This document shows, in pieces, positions 2 to 8,485 of a stretch of DNA of 64,000 nucleotides. The translations under genes and the position numbers were made by a program. The stretch is from an uncultured Clostridia bacterium (GTDB lineage: Bacteria > Bacillota > Clostridia > UBA1381): the NCBI GenBank assembly GCA_947624165.1, contig CANQJC010000001.1, positions 1 to 64,000 on the forward strand, given 5' to 3'. The notes under the pieces are model-generated. The model searched no databases and had not been told where the DNA came from. It saw nothing but the letters and a program-made list of their open reading frames with translations. How positions within the stretch are numbered: position 1 is the first letter of the stretch; each line of letters starts with the position of its first letter.

Positions 2-76
2 GGATTTGGTGTGATTGAGGAATCCGACGGTAAACAAATTTTGAAATTGAATTTACAGATAAGATTTATAAAATAA
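2..76 (+). CDS. C-terminal end of an unidentified protein (partial)
   Basis: An open frame enters from the left edge and runs 24 codons to a TAA at 74-76, ending in LNLQIRFIK. It stops 27 bases before the methyltransferase ATG at 104 and is on the same strand, so it may belong to the same transcript. The fragment is too short to identify a family. Its base composition matches the AT-rich island rather than the rest of the window. It could be the third component of the methyltransferase/ATPase locus, but that is inference from position only. Confidence 0.35.
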   Translation, partial: GFGVIEESDGKQILKLNLQIRFIK

Positions 77-103
77 AGAGAAATGAATAAGTAGGTGAAT
101 TTT

Positions 104-964
104 ATGAACAATGTTAGCCCACTGAGATACCCAGGCGGAAAAAGTAAAATCTCTTCATTTGTAAAAATTGTCATTAATAAAGCCGCTATTAATGGGACAT
201 ATATAGAACCATTTGCCGGTGGAGCGGGTGTTGCACTACAGCTTTTATTTGATAATGCTGTTGATAATATCGTAATTAATGATTATGATAAGGCGATATA
301 CTCGTTTTGGAGAGCAATTAAACAAGATGGGAAGAAATTACTTGATTTAATAGAAAAAACACCTGTTACCGTAGATGAGTGGCGCAAGCAAAAACAAATA
401 TATTTGACTGCAAATTGCTATTCGGTAGAATTGGCTTTTGCAACATTTTATTTAAATAGAACTAATCGCTCAGGAATACTTACAGCTGGACCAATAGGTG
501 GATTTGAACAATGTGGTAACTATAAAATAGATGTACGATACAATAAAAAGAGTTTAATTAGAAAAATTGAGAAGATTATGGAATATAAAAAAAATATATA
601 TGTTTACAATAAGGATATTTGTAAATTTGTTGTAAATATTATACCGAAGTTTGAGAACAATGCATTTGTTTATTTTGATCCACCTTATTATAATAAAGGA
701 CAACAGCTGTATAAAAATTTTTTAATGCATAGTGATCATGAGAAAATTGCCGATTTAATAAAAAAATTAAATTGTCCATGGATTGTATCTTATGATGATG
801 TATCAGATATTGAAGAAATTTATGCAGGATATTTAATAAAGAAATTTAGTGTTAATTATAGTGCGGCAAATTCTGGTAAATCGATGGAATTGATGATTTT
901 TGGGAACAGGGAACTATGTCCCGATAATATAGAACTGAAAAAAGCAAATATTGAGTTAATATAG
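104..964 (+). CDS. D12-class N6-adenine DNA methyltransferase (Dam family)
   Basis: Predicted to transfer a methyl group from S-adenosylmethionine to the N6 of adenine in a specific DNA site. The 286-residue protein opens with PLRYPGGKSK, the usual N-terminal signature of the D12 (alpha-class) family. It has the AdoMet-binding motif EPFAGGAG at residues 35-42 and the catalytic DPPY motif at residues 192-195, so both key motifs are intact. A GTG nine bases upstream is in frame, but AGGTG at 93-97 is correctly spaced for the ATG at 104. Its stop codon overlaps the ribosome binding site of the ATPase gene, so the two are almost certainly co-transcribed. No cognate restriction endonuclease is visible. 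The gene is AT-rich and looks horizontally acquired. The recognition site cannot be read from the sequence. Confidence 0.9.
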   Translation: MNNVSPLRYPGGKSKISSFVKIVINKAAINGTYIEPFAGGAGVALQLLFDNAVDNIVINDYDKAIYSFWRAIKQDGKKLLDLIEKTPVTVDEWRKQKQIYLTANCYSVELAFATFYLNRTNRSGILTAGPIGGFEQCGNYKIDVRYNKKSLIRKIEKIMEYKKNIYVYNKDICKFVVNIIPKFENNAFVYFDPPYYNKGQQLYKNFLMHSDHEKIADLIKKLNCPWIVSYDDVSDIEEIYAGYLIKKFSVNYSAANSGKSMELMIFGNRELCPDNIELKKANIELI

Positions 965-976
965 GTGGTGTATAAA

Positions 977-2539
977 ATGATAATTAAACATGCGCATATT
1001 GACAAATTCAGGGCACTGAATAATGTTGATTTTGATTTGGGTAGTAAAATCACAGCAATTGTTGGACATAACGGGACTATGAAAACAACGATTCTGGGTA
1101 TATTGAGTCAGACTTTCACAATAAGTAAAAGTCATGTTATGAATGGAGAAACAACCATAGACGGGTATAATTTTCATTCGCAGTTCAGAGAAAAATTTAA
1201 ATTATCTGATAAAGATAAGCCTGGTGAACACAAATGGAGATTAGATTTATATAAAGATGTATATAAAAAGGATTTTTTTGAGGTCCATAGTATACCTAGA
1301 GATAAAAGATCAAATGATATAAGATTTTGGTCAACAGAAGGAAAAATCAAAGATGTAGGATATCCGCAAGTTCCGGCATATTACATAAGCCTGAAAAGAG
1401 TTACGCCTATAGGTGAAGAAAACAAAGTTACTTATATTTCCGAATTGGATGATGAAGAAATAAGTTTTTTAAACAACGAGTACAAGGAAATATTTTCTAT
1501 AGCGAAAAACGCAGAATTATCGGTTGATTCTATATCTTCCAAAAATAAGCACACTGCATCGATACATGATGAAGCACACGATGCTTTGTCAATATCAGCA
1601 GGGCAAGATAATGTAGCAAAAATTTTATTGGCAGTATTATCTTTTGGAAGATTAAAAAATAAATATCCGAATGATTATAAAGGGGGAATTTTGTTAATAG
1701 ATGAAATCGAGGCAACTCTTCATCCGTTGGCTCAGAGTAAGCTTATAAAACGCATTTATAAATATGCCAAAGATTTTAGAATTCAATTTGTTTTTACAAC
1801 ACACTCTCCATCTGTCATAAAATCAACTTTTTTTGATAAATATAATAATAAAGAAGCACAATTATTATATTTAAAAAGAGTTGGTGAAAAAGTGTGTGTA
1901 TATAACAACCCCAATATTAATGATGTAATTGCAGAGTTATCCGGTATTGTCAGAAAACCGGCAAAAAAAACATATAAAATTAAAGTCTTTTGCGAAGATC
2001 TAGTTGCGAGAAATATTGTTAAAAAACTTTTGGCAGCATACAAACAATATTTTAGTGTAATGTCTTGTTCTCTGGGAGCCGAGGAATATATAGAATTACT
2101 GAGAGTGAAATTGTCCGAAATCAGTAAATCCATAATTATACTTGATGGTGATAAAAACATTAGTTCTATAAATAGAAAATTAAGAACAATGAATTCAAAA
2201 AACGTTATGTTTTTGCCATCAAATGTTTGCCCTGAAAAAATGTTCTATGAATATTTATTCAATTTACCGGAAGATGCTAAAATATGGGACAATGCTCTTG
2301 GAAGATTTGATAAAACTAAGTGTTTCAAGGATTATCCGACCTTGATGGATAAGCAAGCCGAGACACAGCAATATAAGAAGTGGTTTGATAGTGTGAAGTC
2401 TAATTTTGGACGAGGATATGAAAAATTAATTAATATATGGATGGCTGATAATACGAATCAATACGAAAATTTTGTAAGTCAGTTTATCAAAATATATAAT
2501 AGTCAAGCAGCTATAAATGGATTGGATAAAATAGATTGA
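977..2539 (+). CDS. AAA ATPase fused to a TOPRIM-like nuclease domain (OLD-like)
   Basis: A 520-residue protein with an N-terminal SMC/ABC-type ATPase and a C-terminal TOPRIM-like region. Walker A is GHNGTMKTT (residues 30-38), with Met where the canonical P-loop has its last Gly. Walker B is ILLIDE (238-243), followed about 30 residues later by FTTHSP, the H-switch of ABC/OLD ATPases. After the ATPase comes KVFCED (336-341) and ILDGD (388-392), giving Glu340 and Asp390-x-Asp392, the acidic pattern expected of a TOPRIM metal site. This architecture is known from OLD nucleases and from fused ATPase-TOPRIM defence proteins such as those of PARIS. The start at 977 is chosen because AGGTGG at 963-968 precedes it; two upstream GTGs are in frame. 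Partnership with the methyltransferase suggests a phage-defence role, which is inferred. Confidence 0.78.
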   Translation: MIIKHAHIDKFRALNNVDFDLGSKITAIVGHNGTMKTTILGILSQTFTISKSHVMNGETTIDGYNFHSQFREKFKLSDKDKPGEHKWRLDLYKDVYKKDFFEVHSIPRDKRSNDIRFWSTEGKIKDVGYPQVPAYYISLKRVTPIGEENKVTYISELDDEEISFLNNEYKEIFSIAKNAELSVDSISSKNKHTASIHDEAHDALSISAGQDNVAKILLAVLSFGRLKNKYPNDYKGGILLIDEIEATLHPLAQSKLIKRIYKYAKDFRIQFVFTTHSPSVIKSTFFDKYNNKEAQLLYLKRVGEKVCVYNNPNINDVIAELSGIVRKPAKKTYKIKVFCEDLVARNIVKKLLAAYKQYFSVMSCSLGAEEYIELLRVKLSEISKSIIILDGDKNISSINRKLRTMNSKNVMFLPSNVCPEKMFYEYLFNLPEDAKIWDNALGRFDKTKCFKDYPTLMDKQAETQQYKKWFDSVKSNFGRGYEKLINIWMADNTNQYENFVSQFIKIYNSQAAINGLDKID

Positions 2540-2854: not shown

Positions 2855-3727
2855 ATGAAACCCAAGAAAGATAAAATTATATTTATTATATTGCATTGTA
2901 TTGCCGCTGTCGCTATCATGATAATTGCTTTATTCGGCGGTGATATGATAAGCAATATTGTGCCTGATGATAATCTATCCCTAAAAAGTATAGTATCTAC
3001 CATTATATATATCGGTATCACACTATCCGCTGGACTGCTGTACGCTAAATATGTTTTGCGTTTCAGCTTTGAAGAAATAGGTGTATATTTCAAAGCACCG
3101 CAGTTAAAATGGATTGCTGCGGGTTTTATTCTTCCGTCGGCGATAACGGCGTTTTATTTAATTTTTACGGACGGGCAGCTCATAAAAAATAATAATGCGG
3201 CAAGCATAATGCCATGTTTGATCAACGCAATATTCCCAATTGGGCTTGCTTCGGGAATTTGTGAGGAATTTATTTTTCGCGGGCTGATAATGCGCACGTT
3301 TGAACGCCGATGGAACAGCGCAGCGGCGGTACTGATTCCGTCTGTTTTGTTTGCGCTTATGCACGCGTTTAATATGCGTTTGGGATTTGTCGATATATTG
3401 CTGCTGGTTGTTGCGGGTACTGCTGTCGGAGTGATGTTTTCATTGATTGCCTTGCAAAGCGGAACGATATGGTCGAGCGCGGTCGTACACGCATTATGGA
3501 ACGCAATCACACTTGGCGGCATTATCATTGAAGTTTCGGGGAACGAAGCAGCAACGGATTTCATTTATAAATACGAATTACTTGATACAAATATTTTATT
3601 GACGGGCGGCAAATTTGGTATAGAATCCGCATTGCCGGCAATTATCGGGTATTTATTGGTTTCCGCAATAGCATTTATGTTAATTAAAAAATCTAAAACC
3701 GTGAAGCAAGTTATTGTACGAAGTTAA
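2855..3727 (+). CDS. CPBP family intramembrane metalloprotease
   Basis: A 290-residue polytopic membrane protein of the CPBP/type II CAAX endopeptidase family (ABI clan). The first conserved motif is EEFIFRG, with Glu137, Glu138 and Arg142, and the later motifs with His are present as LMHAFN and HALWN. Hydrophobic segments alternate through the whole length. Family members cleave peptide bonds within or near the membrane; some process bacteriocin-related peptides or give immunity, but no bacteriocin gene is visible nearby. The ATG at 2855 is preceded by GGAG at 2844-2847. It is the first gene after the AT-rich island and has intermediate base composition, so it may lie either side of the island boundary. 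Substrate is unknown. Confidence 0.85.
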   Translation: MKPKKDKIIFIILHCIAAVAIMIIALFGGDMISNIVPDDNLSLKSIVSTIIYIGITLSAGLLYAKYVLRFSFEEIGVYFKAPQLKWIAAGFILPSAITAFYLIFTDGQLIKNNNAASIMPCLINAIFPIGLASGICEEFIFRGLIMRTFERRWNSAAAVLIPSVLFALMHAFNMRLGFVDILLLVVAGTAVGVMFSLIALQSGTIWSSAVVHALWNAITLGGIIIEVSGNEAATDFIYKYELLDTNILLTGGKFGIESALPAIIGYLLVSAIAFMLIKKSKTVKQVIVRS

Positions 3728-3763
3728 ATGACGCTTCCTCACACCGTTTTGCGTACTTACCGC

Positions 3764-3789
3764 TTATGTTACGGCAATCCCTAACATAA
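3764..3789. repeat. 8-bp inverted repeat (possible hairpin)
   Basis: TTATGTTA (3764-3771) and TAACATAA (3782-3789) form a perfect stem with a 10-base loop, 37 bases after the CPBP stop. The lack of a following T-run argues against a standard terminator. It may still form an RNA 3' end or a regulator site. Confidence 0.4.
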
Positions 3790-3815
3790 AGGCATGTGGG
3801 AAAATCATCGCCGCA

Positions 3816-3844
3816 TTGATTTTTTGCGGCGAGTATGGTATAAT
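3816..3844 (+). promoter_or_regulatory. Sigma-A-type promoter for the gene at 3907
   Basis: TTGATT (3816-3821) and TATAAT (3839-3844) are separated by 17 bases. The -35 lies in the loop of an 8-bp hairpin sequence (TCGCCGCA 3808-3815 and TGCGGCGA 3825-3832). The sequence from GGTATAAT onward is closely shared with the promoter at 4583-4611. Confidence 0.7.
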
Positions 3845-3906
3845 CTTTCCGTAATCAAATGAAGCGATAAATCGGGATTTGTGTAGGTAATGGGGGCTGT
3901 GCTTTT

Positions 3907-4551
3907 ATGTCGAATTTTTTGAATAATATACGAGGTGCAGAAAAGAAAATTTCACTAAAAAGACAAATAATAAATACGGCAGCCATAGCACTTTTGGGAA
4001 TTACCTTAGGCGCACTTTCAAAGTTTTTGGATACTGTCCCTGTCAATCATTTACCTGCTTTGCTTCAATATTTGGATGTGACAAATTTTTTGGGACGGTT
4101 TGCCATATGGATATTCATTGCCGTATGTATTTCGATTTACAGTTTATCGTCAATAAGAGCGGCAATCAATGTGTTGCTGTTCTTTGCGGGGATGATTCTT
4201 AGCTATTATTTATACTCAACATTCATAGCGGGTTTTTTTCCAAAAAGTTATGCGATGATTTGGATCGGCTTTACCGTTGTTTCTCCGCTGCTTGCCTTTA
4301 TTTGCTGGTATGCGAAAGGTCAAAGCGGAATATCGCTGCTTCTTTCCGCGGGAATAATAGCTGTCCTTTTTAATATGTCATTTGCGTACGGAATAGGATA
4401 TTTTAACAGTCTCTCTCTTTTGGAAGCATTGACATTTTTATGCGGGTGTGTCGTTATGAGGCGTCAATCTGTGATAGGTACCGTGATTATGATAGTGATA
4501 GCTGTTGCATTGGCTTTTGTGCTTAATATGGTTGTACCGTTTTATTTTTGA
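3907..4551 (+). CDS. Polytopic membrane protein, DUF6518-like
   Basis: A 214-residue, strongly hydrophobic protein with about seven predicted membrane helices and a short basic N-terminus. Its opening (KRQIINTAAIALLGITLG) and the LGRFAIWIF segment resemble the DUF6518 family as I recall it; the function of that family is unknown. No charged catalytic motif is visible. A GGGGG ribosome binding site near 3890-3895 precedes the ATG at 3907. It has its own promoter and stands as a single transcription unit between the CPBP protease and the EamA transporter. Confidence 0.65.
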   Translation: MSNFLNNIRGAEKKISLKRQIINTAAIALLGITLGALSKFLDTVPVNHLPALLQYLDVTNFLGRFAIWIFIAVCISIYSLSSIRAAINVLLFFAGMILSYYLYSTFIAGFFPKSYAMIWIGFTVVSPLLAFICWYAKGQSGISLLLSAGIIAVLFNMSFAYGIGYFNSLSLLEALTFLCGCVVMRRQSVIGTVIMIVIAVALAFVLNMVVPFYF

Positions 4552-4582
4552 TATGCCTCATTCCTGCTTTGGCGACGTGGGG

Positions 4583-4611
4583 TTGAAAAAATTGGCGGTT
4601 TGTGGTATAAT
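4583..4611 (+). promoter_or_regulatory. Promoter for the EamA transporter
   Basis: TTGAAA (4583-4588) and TATAAT (4606-4611) with a 17-base spacer. The core TTGGCGGTTTGTGGTATAAT is almost identical to that of the promoter at 10410-10439, and the sequence after the -10 matches that after 3844. Confidence 0.75.
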
Positions 4612-4654
4612 ATCTCCGCAATCAAACCGACAAATTTGAATTTAGGTGATACAG

Positions 4655-5701
4655 ATGACCAATAAGAATATCACCGCTATCGGCTATGCGTTAGCCGCGG
4701 CGTTGTTTTATGCAATAAATGTGCCATGTTCAAAGCTGTTGCTTGAAAATGTTTCTCCAACATTTATGGCCGCATTCCTCTACATTGGAGCAGGTATCGG
4801 TGTGGGTGTAATGTACTTATTTCACTATAAAAATGAAAATCCAAAGGAGCGTCTTAATCGAAAGGACTTGCCTTACACGATAGGAATGATAGTGCTTGAC
4901 ATTATTGCTCCAATTTTACTTATGATTGGTGTTAGTATAGTCACGTCAGCAAATGCTTCTTTGCTCGGCAACTTTGAAATCGTTGCAACAACGGTTATTG
5001 CGTTGTTATTGTTTAAGGAAAAAGTAAGCCGAAGGTTGTGGACTGCTATCGGGTTTATTACATTATCAAGCATAGTTCTATCCTTTGGCGGTAGTGGAAG
5101 TCTGAAATTTTCCATTGGCTCGTTTTTCGTGCTTTGTGCGACTGCTTGCTGGGGATTGGAAAACAACTGCACTCGCAACATTTCGGGGAAAAGTACACAT
5201 CAGATTGTAACAATAAAGGGATTTTTTTCGGGGACGGGTTCACTGATAACAGCTCTTATTATCGGTGAGAAATTCCCTGATATAAAATATACTATACCGG
5301 CACTTATTCTTGGCTTTGTTGCGTATGGGCTGAGTATATTTACTTATATCAAAGCACAGAAAACATTGGGAGCTGCAAAGACAAGCGCGTATTATGCGGT
5401 TGCTCCGTTTATAGGCGCATTTCTGTCCTTTGTGTTGCTACATGAAACTTTGACATTGGGCTATGTTATTGCTTTGATCATGATGATTGTCGGAACGGTT
5501 CTTGTGACTGTTGACACCTTGGTTTATAGTCATCTTCATGAGCATACACACACATTTACGCATTTGCATGGCGGCTTAAAACATACACACACAATCACAC
5601 ATAGTCATGAACATAATCATTATGTTATTGATGATAAACACGGACATAAACATAGTGTTGCGGAGTTAGAGAAGTCACTGACAAATCATAATATGATGTA
5701 A
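4655..5701 (+). CDS. EamA/DMT-family transporter with histidine-rich C-terminal tail
   Basis: A 348-residue drug/metabolite transporter superfamily protein with ten predicted membrane helices in two EamA repeats; the start (IGYALAAALFYAINVPCSK) and the PFIGAFLSFVLLHE segment near helix 9 are typical. After the last helix, from about residue 292, it carries a tail full of HxH, THxH and HEHNH clusters (over fifteen His in about 45 residues) that should bind Zn, Ni or Co. Whether the tail senses metal or stores it is unknown. The longest frame begins at GTG 4646, but AGGTG at 4644-4648 points to the ATG at 4655. It ends in a strong terminator and has its own promoter. The transported substrate cannot be inferred. 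Confidence 0.88.
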   Translation: MTNKNITAIGYALAAALFYAINVPCSKLLLENVSPTFMAAFLYIGAGIGVGVMYLFHYKNENPKERLNRKDLPYTIGMIVLDIIAPILLMIGVSIVTSANASLLGNFEIVATTVIALLLFKEKVSRRLWTAIGFITLSSIVLSFGGSGSLKFSIGSFFVLCATACWGLENNCTRNISGKSTHQIVTIKGFFSGTGSLITALIIGEKFPDIKYTIPALILGFVAYGLSIFTYIKAQKTLGAAKTSAYYAVAPFIGAFLSFVLLHETLTLGYVIALIMMIVGTVLVTVDTLVYSHLHEHTHTFTHLHGGLKHTHTITHSHEHNHYVIDDKHGHKHSVAELEKSLTNHNMM

Positions 5702-5737
5702 TTTCCTGTTTACTTTCGGATAAAAATTAAATACCAC

Positions 5738-5770
5738 AAAAAGAGCAACCGAAAAACGGTTGCTCTTTTT
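5738..5770. terminator. Bidirectional intrinsic terminator
   Basis: A perfect 14-bp stem (AAAAAGAGCAACCG at 5738-5751, CGGTTGCTCTTTTT at 5757-5770) with an AAAAA loop. The A-run and T-run flanks let it act on both strands, ending the EamA gene and the convergent beta-helix gene. Confidence 0.92.
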
Positions 5771-5804
5771 ATTGCCCGAAACAAGTCGCATTATATTAAG
5801 CGTA

Positions 5805-8426
5805 TCAATCGTTTTCTATAAGTCCGTAGAAGGTATTACCTACTGTCTTTCCGAAAATCTGTGTTCCCTCCGTGCTGCCCGAATTTGCCGTTATCGTATA
5901 CGAGCCGCCCGCCGTCATTTCAGGCATTGTCACAAACATCCATTTCCATGAGGTTTTGGGAACAAACGTGAATGTACTGCTTGATGTTGTAATCTGAACG
6001 GGAGTTCCCGCGCTGCCGGAGCTTCCGCTTTTCAGAGCGTAGCCCTGTCCGCTGACGGTCGGAGTTACAGCCATATCGCTTGTACCCGCGCCGATAAGCG
6101 TTCCTCCAGTTACTGTAAAGTAACAGCCGCTTGAATCGCCCATGTCGAAAACTCCGTTGCCGCCGCTTGTGGGGCCGTTTTCAATCACGATGCCGCCGCT
6201 CATTGCAATACTGCCGTTCGAGTCAACGCCGTCGCCGTTTGCTTCAACATAGCACCGCCCGCCTTTGATATACAGCATACCGTAGGGCGACGAGTCGTCG
6301 CCGCCCCAGCCGGGACCCCAGCCGCCTGTGCCGCCGCCCTGATTGCCGCCGGGACCGCCCTGGTTACCGCCGGGACCTACCATCAATTCGAAGTCATTGC
6401 TTGATGAAAGAGTGGCTCCTTCTTGGTAATCGCCCGCCGCGTTGATTCCGTCGTCGCTCGCGACAAGGTATGTCGTGCCGCTGAGCATATTTATAACCGA
6501 GCCTTCGATACCCTCGTAAGAGGTCGTAATATCAATATTAAAATCATCGTCCGAACCGTTTTCCGTACCGAGCGTCAGCGTGTAATCCGCGTGAACTCCG
6601 TCGTCGCCGGTCGCGAGAGTGAAGCTGCCGCCCGTAATCGTGACGTTCCAGTTTGAATGAATACTGTCGTCCGCGCTGTTTATATCAAACGTGCCGCCGC
6701 TTATGTTAAGCTCCGTGTTCGCCTTAATGCCCTTGCAGCTGTCGGCGTCGTCGGATACGGTCGTAGTGTGACCGCCGTTTGTTACAAGGGTAATATTGCC
6801 GCCGGAGATATCAATGTTTCCCGTGGTATAATCCGATTTCGTAACGGTCGTGCCGCTCGTCGTTTCGACAAGAGCCTTGCCGGACTGTATACCGTCGCAC
6901 TTCGCCGCCGCGTCAATAGTTCCCGCGTCAATATCCGCAAGATCATACGCCTTGATGAAATCGCCGCCGGCTGAGCCGCCAAGCGTTCCGTCCGTCATGA
7001 TGAAGTCTCCGCTCGTCGTAATTGCGTCGTCGGACGCGGTAATATTGACCGTGCCGCCCGATATTGTCACAACGCCCGCGACTACCACCGTTTCCGTTGT
7101 TGTATTACCGCTGACCGCGTCCGTCGTTTCTCCCGCCTGTATGCCGTCATAACCGCTTCCGTCGGTTGCGTCCGTGCCTGTCGCTTTTACCGTTATATCA
7201 GCCGTATCGGAAACAGTCACGCTTTCCGTTGCCTTAATGCCGTCCTCGCCGGAGGTAACATTAAGCGTTCCGCCGCTTATCGTAATTTTGCCGTTGACAT
7301 ATTGGTCTTCAACGACCGCGTCATTTTCTATTACCGGCAGATTTACCTCGTTCGCCTTAATGCCCTCAGTGCCGGAGTTGATAGTAATATTGCCGCCCGT
7401 TATCGTGCAGTAATTGTCCGCTTGTATACCGTCGCCTGCGGCGGTAATATCGAACGTACCGCCCGCGATCGTGACATAGCCCTTGTCCGCTTCGATCGCG
7501 CCGGTAGTCAAAATATCCGTGTCGATAGCGTCGGATTTAATGCCGTCGCCGCCTGTGGAGGTTATTTTAACCGTGCCGGTTCTATCGGTAAATTCCACTC
7601 CGTTGTCGCCTTTGACCGCGTTATTTACAGCTGTCACGTCAAGATTCGCGTCCTTTTTGATTTTCATATCCGCGCCGCATACCAAGCCGTTTTTGACGTT
7701 TCCGTTGACCTTCAAAGTACCCGCGCCGCCTATGTCGAGGTCGCGCTTTGAATAGAAGCAGCCCTTCGGGTCTTTTTCTGTAGTGTAATTTGTGTAAGCT
7801 GACGTATCGGTAAATATATTTGTCGTACCGTCCGCGAGCGTTATTTCTATCTTGCCGCCGCCCGCGTTAAACGGCGCACTTTTTGAGCAAGTCACGTTTA
7901 CACCGCGAAGCTCTATATTTACCGCGTCCTTTTTGCCGAGCGCGTCCGATACGACGATTTGACCGTCGTTGAGCGTTCCCTCTATGATATAGTCGCCGAC
8001 CGCCGTTATCGTAACGGTAGTACCTTCAACCGTAACGCCCTCAATACCGTCCGCGTAAATCTCATCTCCGCGCAGATGTATTATTCCGTCATTTTCGGGC
8101 GGTGTTCCCGCATAATCCGTTTTGCCGAAAAGCGGTTTTTGGTCGTCGTTCCATACGTAAATAGAACCGCTGTAAAAGCCGTTAAGCACCGCCGTGTAAC
8201 TCTCGCCCGAAACAGCGTTGTCTATATGATAAGCGACTGCTTTTTGAAGCGTTGTTCCGCTATACTCCGCGCCTATCACATATATCCCGCCGCTCTCCGG
8301 CGCGGTGAACGATACCGAAAGCCCCGTTTCCGTTTCCGTAACGCTGACGTCGGCATTATCAGCCAGCGCGGTAATACCGAATATCACCATAACCGCGATT
8401 AAAATTGATAAAAAATTCTTTTTCAT
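5805..8426 (-). CDS. Cthe_2159-like beta-helix carbohydrate-binding surface protein
   Basis: An 873-residue secreted protein with a signal peptide (KKNFLSILIAVMVIFGITALA) followed by a carbohydrate-binding domain of the type known from Clostridium thermocellum Cthe_2159, a parallel beta-helix reported to bind polygalacturonate and cellulose. The body is built of short turns ending in DGI or EGI plus A/K, such as ITAAGDGIQADN and VTSGEDGIKATE, usually led by a GG-[TS]-[FLV] strand. A Gly-rich linker (GGNQGGPGGNQGG, then GGWGPGWGG) interrupts the C-terminal third. The start at 8426 follows GGGGGA; the longer frame begins at 8441 without support. No sortase motif is visible. The gene has its own unusual promoter at 8486-8531. 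Given the galacturonate genes at 48-53 kb, a role in pectin binding is plausible but inferred. Confidence 0.85.
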   Translation of the reverse strand: MKKNFLSILIAVMVIFGITALADNADVSVTETETGLSVSFTAPESGGIYVIGAEYSGTTLQKAVAYHIDNAVSGESYTAVLNGFYSGSIYVWNDDQKPLFGKTDYAGTPPENDGIIHLRGDEIYADGIEGVTVEGTTVTITAVGDYIIEGTLNDGQIVVSDALGKKDAVNIELRGVNVTCSKSAPFNAGGGKIEITLADGTTNIFTDTSAYTNYTTEKDPKGCFYSKRDLDIGGAGTLKVNGNVKNGLVCGADMKIKKDANLDVTAVNNAVKGDNGVEFTDRTGTVKITSTGGDGIKSDAIDTDILTTGAIEADKGYVTIAGGTFDITAAGDGIQADNYCTITGGNITINSGTEGIKANEVNLPVIENDAVVEDQYVNGKITISGGTLNVTSGEDGIKATESVTVSDTADITVKATGTDATDGSGYDGIQAGETTDAVSGNTTTETVVVAGVVTISGGTVNITASDDAITTSGDFIMTDGTLGGSAGGDFIKAYDLADIDAGTIDAAAKCDGIQSGKALVETTSGTTVTKSDYTTGNIDISGGNITLVTNGGHTTTVSDDADSCKGIKANTELNISGGTFDINSADDSIHSNWNVTITGGSFTLATGDDGVHADYTLTLGTENGSDDDFNIDITTSYEGIEGSVINMLSGTTYLVASDDGINAAGDYQEGATLSSSNDFELMVGPGGNQGGPGGNQGGGTGGWGPGWGGDDSSPYGMLYIKGGRCYVEANGDGVDSNGSIAMSGGIVIENGPTSGGNGVFDMGDSSGCYFTVTGGTLIGAGTSDMAVTPTVSGQGYALKSGSSGSAGTPVQITTSSSTFTFVPKTSWKWMFVTMPEMTAGGSYTITANSGSTEGTQIFGKTVGNTFYGLIEND

Positions 8427-8485
8427 ACAGTTCCCCCACATCTCAAATGTTTTTATTTTGTGTCTGCCTTACCGGCTTCCCGAAT

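Follow-up and report, generated by a model that had tools for sequence, protein, structure and literature searches.

A DNA methyltransferase paired with an OLD-like ATPase-TOPRIM protein: a candidate methylation-guarded phage defence unit

Two adjacent genes at the end of a contig from an uncultured Clostridia bacterium raise the question of whether a DNA adenine methyltransferase (MTase) and an ATPase resembling the OLD nucleases belong together, and what such a pair might do for the cell. The window, i.e. the whole stretch of DNA analysed, comprises the first 64,000 nucleotides of contig CANQJC010000001.1. The host is represented by a metagenome-assembled genome (MAG) of 1.76 Mb, 82% complete and in 40 contigs. 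The pair is probably a phage defence unit, thus far without a name, in which a mark would protect the cell's own DNA.

The locus and its two proteins

The MTase gene (positions 104..964, plus strand) encodes 286 amino acids and the ATPase gene (977..2539, plus strand) encodes 520. Both are intact, lie on the same strand and are separated by a spacer of 12 nt. The preferred start of the MTase is the ATG at 104, which has an RBS-like TAGGTG on its 5′ side, and that of the ATPase is the ATG at 977; upstream GTG codons are the less favoured choice in both cases. The module is located at the left end of the window, in 3 kb of ~30% GC that contrast with ~50% GC in the rest, and the two genes in an AT-rich island that a preliminary description had reported are thus a correct reading of the sequence. 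The ATPase was found in none of 94 sampled genomes of the host's order, and therefore recent horizontal transfer is the most likely origin of the pair. The genes to the right of the module (window positions 2855-8441) are ordinary chromosomal genes, which encode a CAAX-protease-like (Rce1-like) membrane protein, a DUF6518-like protein, an EamA transporter and, at 5805-8441 on the minus strand, a Cthe_2159 carbohydrate-binding protein.

Base 1 of the window is the first base of contig 1, and the MTase start is 103 bases from the contig end. The gene described earlier as entering from the left is real (2..76, plus strand), but the contig end truncates it to its C-terminal 24 codons, read from the open reading frame as GFGVIEESDGKQILKLNLQIRFIK. 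It possibly belongs to the same operon as the pair. No relatives of this fragment were found by short-peptide BLAST against the retrieved genes or by a degenerate DNA scan of viral_contigs, and no overlapping contig end that continues it was found in the rest of the host genome.

The MTase was considered earlier to be a complete D12 enzyme, and this is borne out by the Pfam D12 match (PF02086, 1.2e-21) and by its motifs, EPFAGGAG and DPPY (residues 192-195). The catalytic columns are invariant in an alignment of 40 homologues, and 7m6b and 2dpm are relatives of solved structure. The protein scores under the NCBIfam 'dam' cut-off. Its match to the PADLOC model PD-Lambda-5_B (PDLC04018) is far stronger than that to D12, at 2.7e-112. 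By these profile matches the protein is assigned to the D12-class DNA adenine-N6 methyltransferases as a B component of PD-lambda-5. The PD-lambda-5 system is an experimentally proven defence of Escherichia coli that acts against nearly all tested phages (Vassallo et al., 2022; PMC9519451). It should be pointed out that cloning of PD-lambda-5 required an mrr-deleted host (PMC9519451); this points to B-type MTases being active and writing m6A marks that are recognised by Mrr.

The second protein had been described as an OLD-like ATPase. It matches Pfam AAA_15 (3.6e-16) as well as AAA_21, and the top match of a whole-chain Foldseek search is the OLD nuclease 6p74, followed closely by retron Eco8 and GajA; the fold also matches Rad50/SMC heads. 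Almost its full length matches PHROG 3940, a family of 'unknown function' (3.6e-99). Matches to PADLOC models (PtuA, HEC-04, retron ATPase-Toprim, AriA and GajA) are all weak and mostly limited to the ATPase head. The head (977..1951, plus strand), whose motif columns are invariant or near-invariant across 44 homologues, is of the ABC type, with Walker A, Walker B and signature motifs as in the OLD family. The motifs are GHNGTMKT (residues 30-37) for Walker A, SAGQDN (207-212) for the signature and ILLIDE for Walker B, followed by H276. Residue numbers given previously (Walker A G30-K36, Walker B D242-E243, H276, E340, D390 and D392) are correct. Invariant in 44 diverse homologues are the Walker A G-N-K, S207-G209-D211, D242-E243, T274-H276-S277, E340-D341, D390 and D392. 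With four proteins from E. coli added, 48 of 48 share the four acidic residues E340, D341, D390 and D392, and K467 of the C-terminal domain is nearly invariant.

The C-terminal region, residues 326-520 (1952..2536, plus strand), was delimited by an AlphaFold2 model and by conservation, and consists of a putative TOPRIM-like nuclease domain and a helical tail. Mean pLDDT is 87.9 for the whole ATPase protein and 92.7 for these 195 residues modelled alone. The predicted elements follow the order beta-E-alpha-beta-alpha-beta-DxD-alpha-beta-alpha, as in TOPRIM, with E340 at the end of strand 1 and D390xD392 at the end of strand 3, which are the TOPRIM positions. The best VIA-align row for the C-terminal model is 6nk8, which represents an OLD C-terminal region (Z 7.8, with 157 residues aligned at an rmsd of 5.2), and the next rows are three Xanthomonas OLD entries with 159-162 residues aligned. 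Receiver domains reach a similar Z, but align only ~100 residues, compared with 157-162 for OLD. At the sequence level, no profile match to TOPRIM was found for this domain in Pfam, the PDB or GajA relatives. Thus, the TOPRIM-like C-terminus of the preliminary description holds by predicted fold and invariant acids and finds no counterpart among sequence profiles; the model indicates a TOPRIM domain that is strongly diverged in sequence. Of the two TOPRIM families suggested for comparison in that description, OLD gave the structural match to 6nk8, and no DUF4435 match was found, either with the ATPase protein or with its C-terminal domain family.

The architecture is that of OLD nucleases such as P2 Old and Thermus scotoductus OLD, which have an ABC-type ATPase head, a C-terminal TOPRIM-like domain and a helical tail (structural matches 6p74 for the whole chain and 6nk8/6njv for the C-terminus). 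However, P2 Old works without a methyltransferase, and its TOPRIM sequence is not recognisably related to the one found here. GajA of Gabija also has ATPase and TOPRIM in one chain, but the UvrD/GajB helicase is absent from this locus, where the next downstream genes are those for the CAAX protease, DUF6518-like and EamA proteins; an MTase is present instead. In sequence, the ATPase head is closest to PtuA of Septu and type I retrons among both PADLOC models and PDB entries. PtuA, however, has no TOPRIM domain and acts with the HNH protein PtuB, and no PtuB-like HNH match was found in the pair or among the genes to its right in the window. Searches of PADLOC 2.0, NCBIfam 2026 and Pfam gave no model dedicated to the pair. 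Among the named systems in Pfam and PADLOC, only the MTase has a match, i.e. PD-lambda-5_B, and the second protein of PD-lambda-5 is a different one. A published name for the pair was not found, although Krishnan et al. (2020), in their work on ABC-ATPase conflict systems, may list such neighbourhoods.

Recurrence, genomic sites and decay of the pair

With tblastn and pattern scans, the pair was found in two Clostridia MAGs, Acinetobacter baumannii, the Citrobacter phage phiNP and the Vibrio phage ValB1MD-2. The loci show both gene orders as well as a convergent layout, and the pair is spread over at least three bacterial phyla, where it occurs in genomes, on plasmids and in prophages. In a sample of 398 genomes drawn evenly across the host's phylum, nine have an ATPase match of at least 223 bits, and the MTase adjoins the ATPase in all nine. 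The next ATPase relatives in these genomes, four in number, reach at most 63 bits over partial length and are all without the MTase. A scan of viral_contigs gave 69 ATPase loci, 61 of which have the MTase; these are all the loci with an intact flank (61/61), the remaining eight being cut by a contig end or fragmentary. Generic D12 MTases served as a control, and at none of their 43 loci does the ATPase or any other partner accompany the MTase. The recurrence in unrelated genomes that was to be expected of a functional unit is therefore found, and the two genes form a genuine unit, recurrent and obligately linked. It might be asked whether the MTase is an orphan that has come to lie beside an unrelated ATPase by chance. 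Obligate adjacency across phyla, in both orders and convergently, together with the clean negative controls, leaves that reading a negligible probability; the co-occurrence refutes it.

The full pair is present in 85 of 5,426 complete E. coli genomes (~1.6%), labelled as 'AAA family ATPase' and 'DNA adenine methylase'. These generic names conceal a system that would be open to experiments in a standard laboratory strain. In E. coli the pair lies directly beside a prophage integrase, between icd and intE, or in an integrative and conjugative element (ICE). In a P2-like E. coli prophage it sits between the replication endonuclease and portal genes; in another E. coli, PD-lambda-5 occupies this position, whose role as a defence hotspot is established (PMC9519451; PMC9122126). 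Plasmids of Nicoliella, Staphylococcus and Psychrobacter also carry the pair or a remnant of it, as do Fusobacterium and a Streptococcus phage, in the latter next to the phage integrase. Sites such as the P2 hotspot, integrases, the ICE and plasmids fit those of defence cargo. The earlier proposal of a candidate defence module stands, the pair being recurrent and residing at defence-hotspot and mobile-element sites.

Decay of the loci is asymmetric. In a redundant set of 127 loci with both genes, the ATPase is internally broken in four (two Acinetobacter-like, Fusobacterium and Psychrobacter) and the MTase is intact in all four, whereas a broken MTase beside an intact ATPase was seen in none of the 127. 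A nuclease that endangers the cell once its MTase is gone would be expected to leave such a pattern. However, four against zero are small numbers, two of the loci are both Acinetobacter-like and the ATPase gene is the longer one, so that the asymmetry is a weak indication. Another view would be that the pair serves prophages, ICEs and plasmids as a means of addiction or maintenance, whereby the MTase would be an antitoxin-like guard, the nuclease would poison the cell on loss of the module, and defence would be secondary. Its presence on such elements and the loss of the ATPase ahead of the MTase in four of four decayed loci agree with this. Nevertheless, insertion into the accessory defence hotspot of P2, and the swap there with a proven phage defence, PD-lambda-5, make addiction as the primary role very improbable; moreover, addiction is compatible with defence, as restriction-modification (R-M) systems serve both.

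Partners of the methyltransferase

The MTase subfamily is found in 17 of the 398 genomes, and in all 17 it has a defence-type neighbour. The partner is the ATPase-TOPRIM protein in nine genomes (three of these also have a PD-lambda-5_A-like ParB protein), PD-lambda-5_A alone in three, HerA-NurA in four and DruE in one. In a non-redundant set of 88 MTases, which is enriched for ATPase loci by the way it was collected, the partner is the ATPase in 47, A in 25, both in 10 and HerA-NurA in four; of two with no partner called, one is at a contig edge and the other is the DruE locus. In a tree of the MTase (75 rows), ATPase-linked and A-linked enzymes interleave, and the strongly supported branches alone require at least four to five changes of partner. 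The MTase thus behaves as a reusable component that is coupled to different partners.

Several of these loci deserve mention. In four genomes of the phylum sample (L180, L184, L185 and L188) the MTase adjoins HerA-like and NurA-like genes, as identified by Pfam, and MTase-HerA-NurA is apparently a separate combination. At L186 (G449:C26) a PD-lambda-5_B-like MTase gene lies 6 bp downstream of a Druantia DruE1 gene (PADLOC 1420 bits). PD-lambda-5_A, the MTase and the ATPase occur together at L005, L007, L012, L063 and L193, possibly as a three-gene form. At L189, transposase-like genes apparently interrupt a PD-lambda-5_A-like gene, and the MTase and ATPase are intact.

PD-lambda-5 (Vassallo et al., 2022; PMC9519451) shares with the pair the MTase subfamily and the P2-prophage hotspot, and differs in its partner A, which is ParB/Srx-N-like and unrelated to the OLD-like ATPase-TOPRIM protein. 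Perhaps, then, the locus is PD-lambda-5 with an accessory ATPase, and the A gene is beyond the contig end, 103 bases upstream of the MTase. The MTase is PD-lambda-5_B, the left gene is missing, and A and the ATPase are both present at 10 of the 88 non-redundant MTase loci (~11%). Yet the ATPase occurs without A at 47 of the 88, PD-lambda-5_A is absent from the window and from its closest relatives, L002 and L003, where no A is found upstream, and the 24-residue left fragment is unlike the C-termini of A proteins. The accessory-ATPase reading is improbable, and it is rejected because A is absent from most loci.

The exchange of partners might be taken a step further. The D12 MTase would then be a common self-marking hub, and exchangeable effectors (ATPase-TOPRIM, PD-lambda-5_A, HerA-NurA and perhaps DruE) would each respond to DNA that lacks an m6A mark of one common kind; in its ATPase-TOPRIM form, the scheme would be restriction with an ATP-gated OLD nuclease. 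The chances of this general scheme are put at slightly under even. The shared MTase ties PD-lambda-5, which is proven but unexplained in mechanism, to the OLD-family nucleases, and leads to the prediction that several unrelated nucleases rely on one self-marking enzyme.

Proposed function of the pair

On balance we favour a two-gene, methylation-guarded anti-phage module, in which an OLD-like nuclease would attack DNA that has no mark. The D12 MTase would mark the host genome by methylating adenines within a specific motif, and the ATPase-TOPRIM protein would be a nucleotide-gated nuclease directed at DNA without this mark, which it probably recognises at the same motif, either by itself or via the MTase. 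The arrangement would resemble restriction-modification, with an OLD-type nuclease standing where the restriction enzyme would be, and the MTase of the PD-lambda-5_B family, also coupled to a ParB-like protein and to HerA-NurA, may serve as a self-marking part that is used interchangeably. An attack on incoming DNA, guarded by methylation, appears the most likely role because of the shared MTase, the swap at the hotspot and the OLD-type architecture; discrimination of self from non-self through methylation is inferred here. The pair would offer a route to ask how OLD-type nucleases make this distinction. As in type II R-M, a dedicated DNA MTase adjoins a nuclease-type gene, with obligate adjacency. 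The nuclease-type protein differs, however, in that it is ATP-binding and of the OLD type, and no PD-(D/E)XK or HNH domain was found in it. There is precedent for the principle, since links between general OLD-ATPase operons and R-M-like or BREX loci are on record (PMC12839542).

Should the pair instead act by abortive infection, the ATPase-TOPRIM protein would be a suicide nuclease, for DNA or tRNA, silenced by the MTase or by methylated DNA and freed when a phage blocks restriction or methylation, comparable to PARIS and Ocr. Relatives in the OLD family, PARIS among them, target tRNA in abortive infection, and for this reason cleavage of DNA by the ATPase-TOPRIM protein is not assured. The ATPase head resembles PtuA, AriA and GajA, and PARIS, like the pair, combines an OLD-like ATPase with a TOPRIM-type effector and is carried by phages and satellites. 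PARIS (AriA-AriB) kills upon sensing anti-restriction proteins (PMC9122126), and PD-lambda-5 has been termed a compacted R-M plus Abi system (PMC9519451). In addition, a type II R-M operon immediately precedes the pair at two Clostridia loci, L002 and L195, which would suit a backup. Most loci, however, have no adjoining R-M system, and TOPRIM and ATPase are in one chain, as in the DNA nucleases OLD and GajA, whereas PARIS splits them. PARIS also differs in its DUF4435 effector, for which there is no match here, and in having no MTase partner. A suicide nuclease is thus considered unlikely, and the methylation-guarded attack on unmarked DNA is retained as the preferred reading.

The two Clostridia loci also provide a separate observation. 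At L002:2979-7575 and L195:5045-9780 closely similar type II restriction endonuclease and MTase genes precede the pair, and the modules behind the R-M operon are two diverged versions in opposite gene order, as if one had been swapped for the other.
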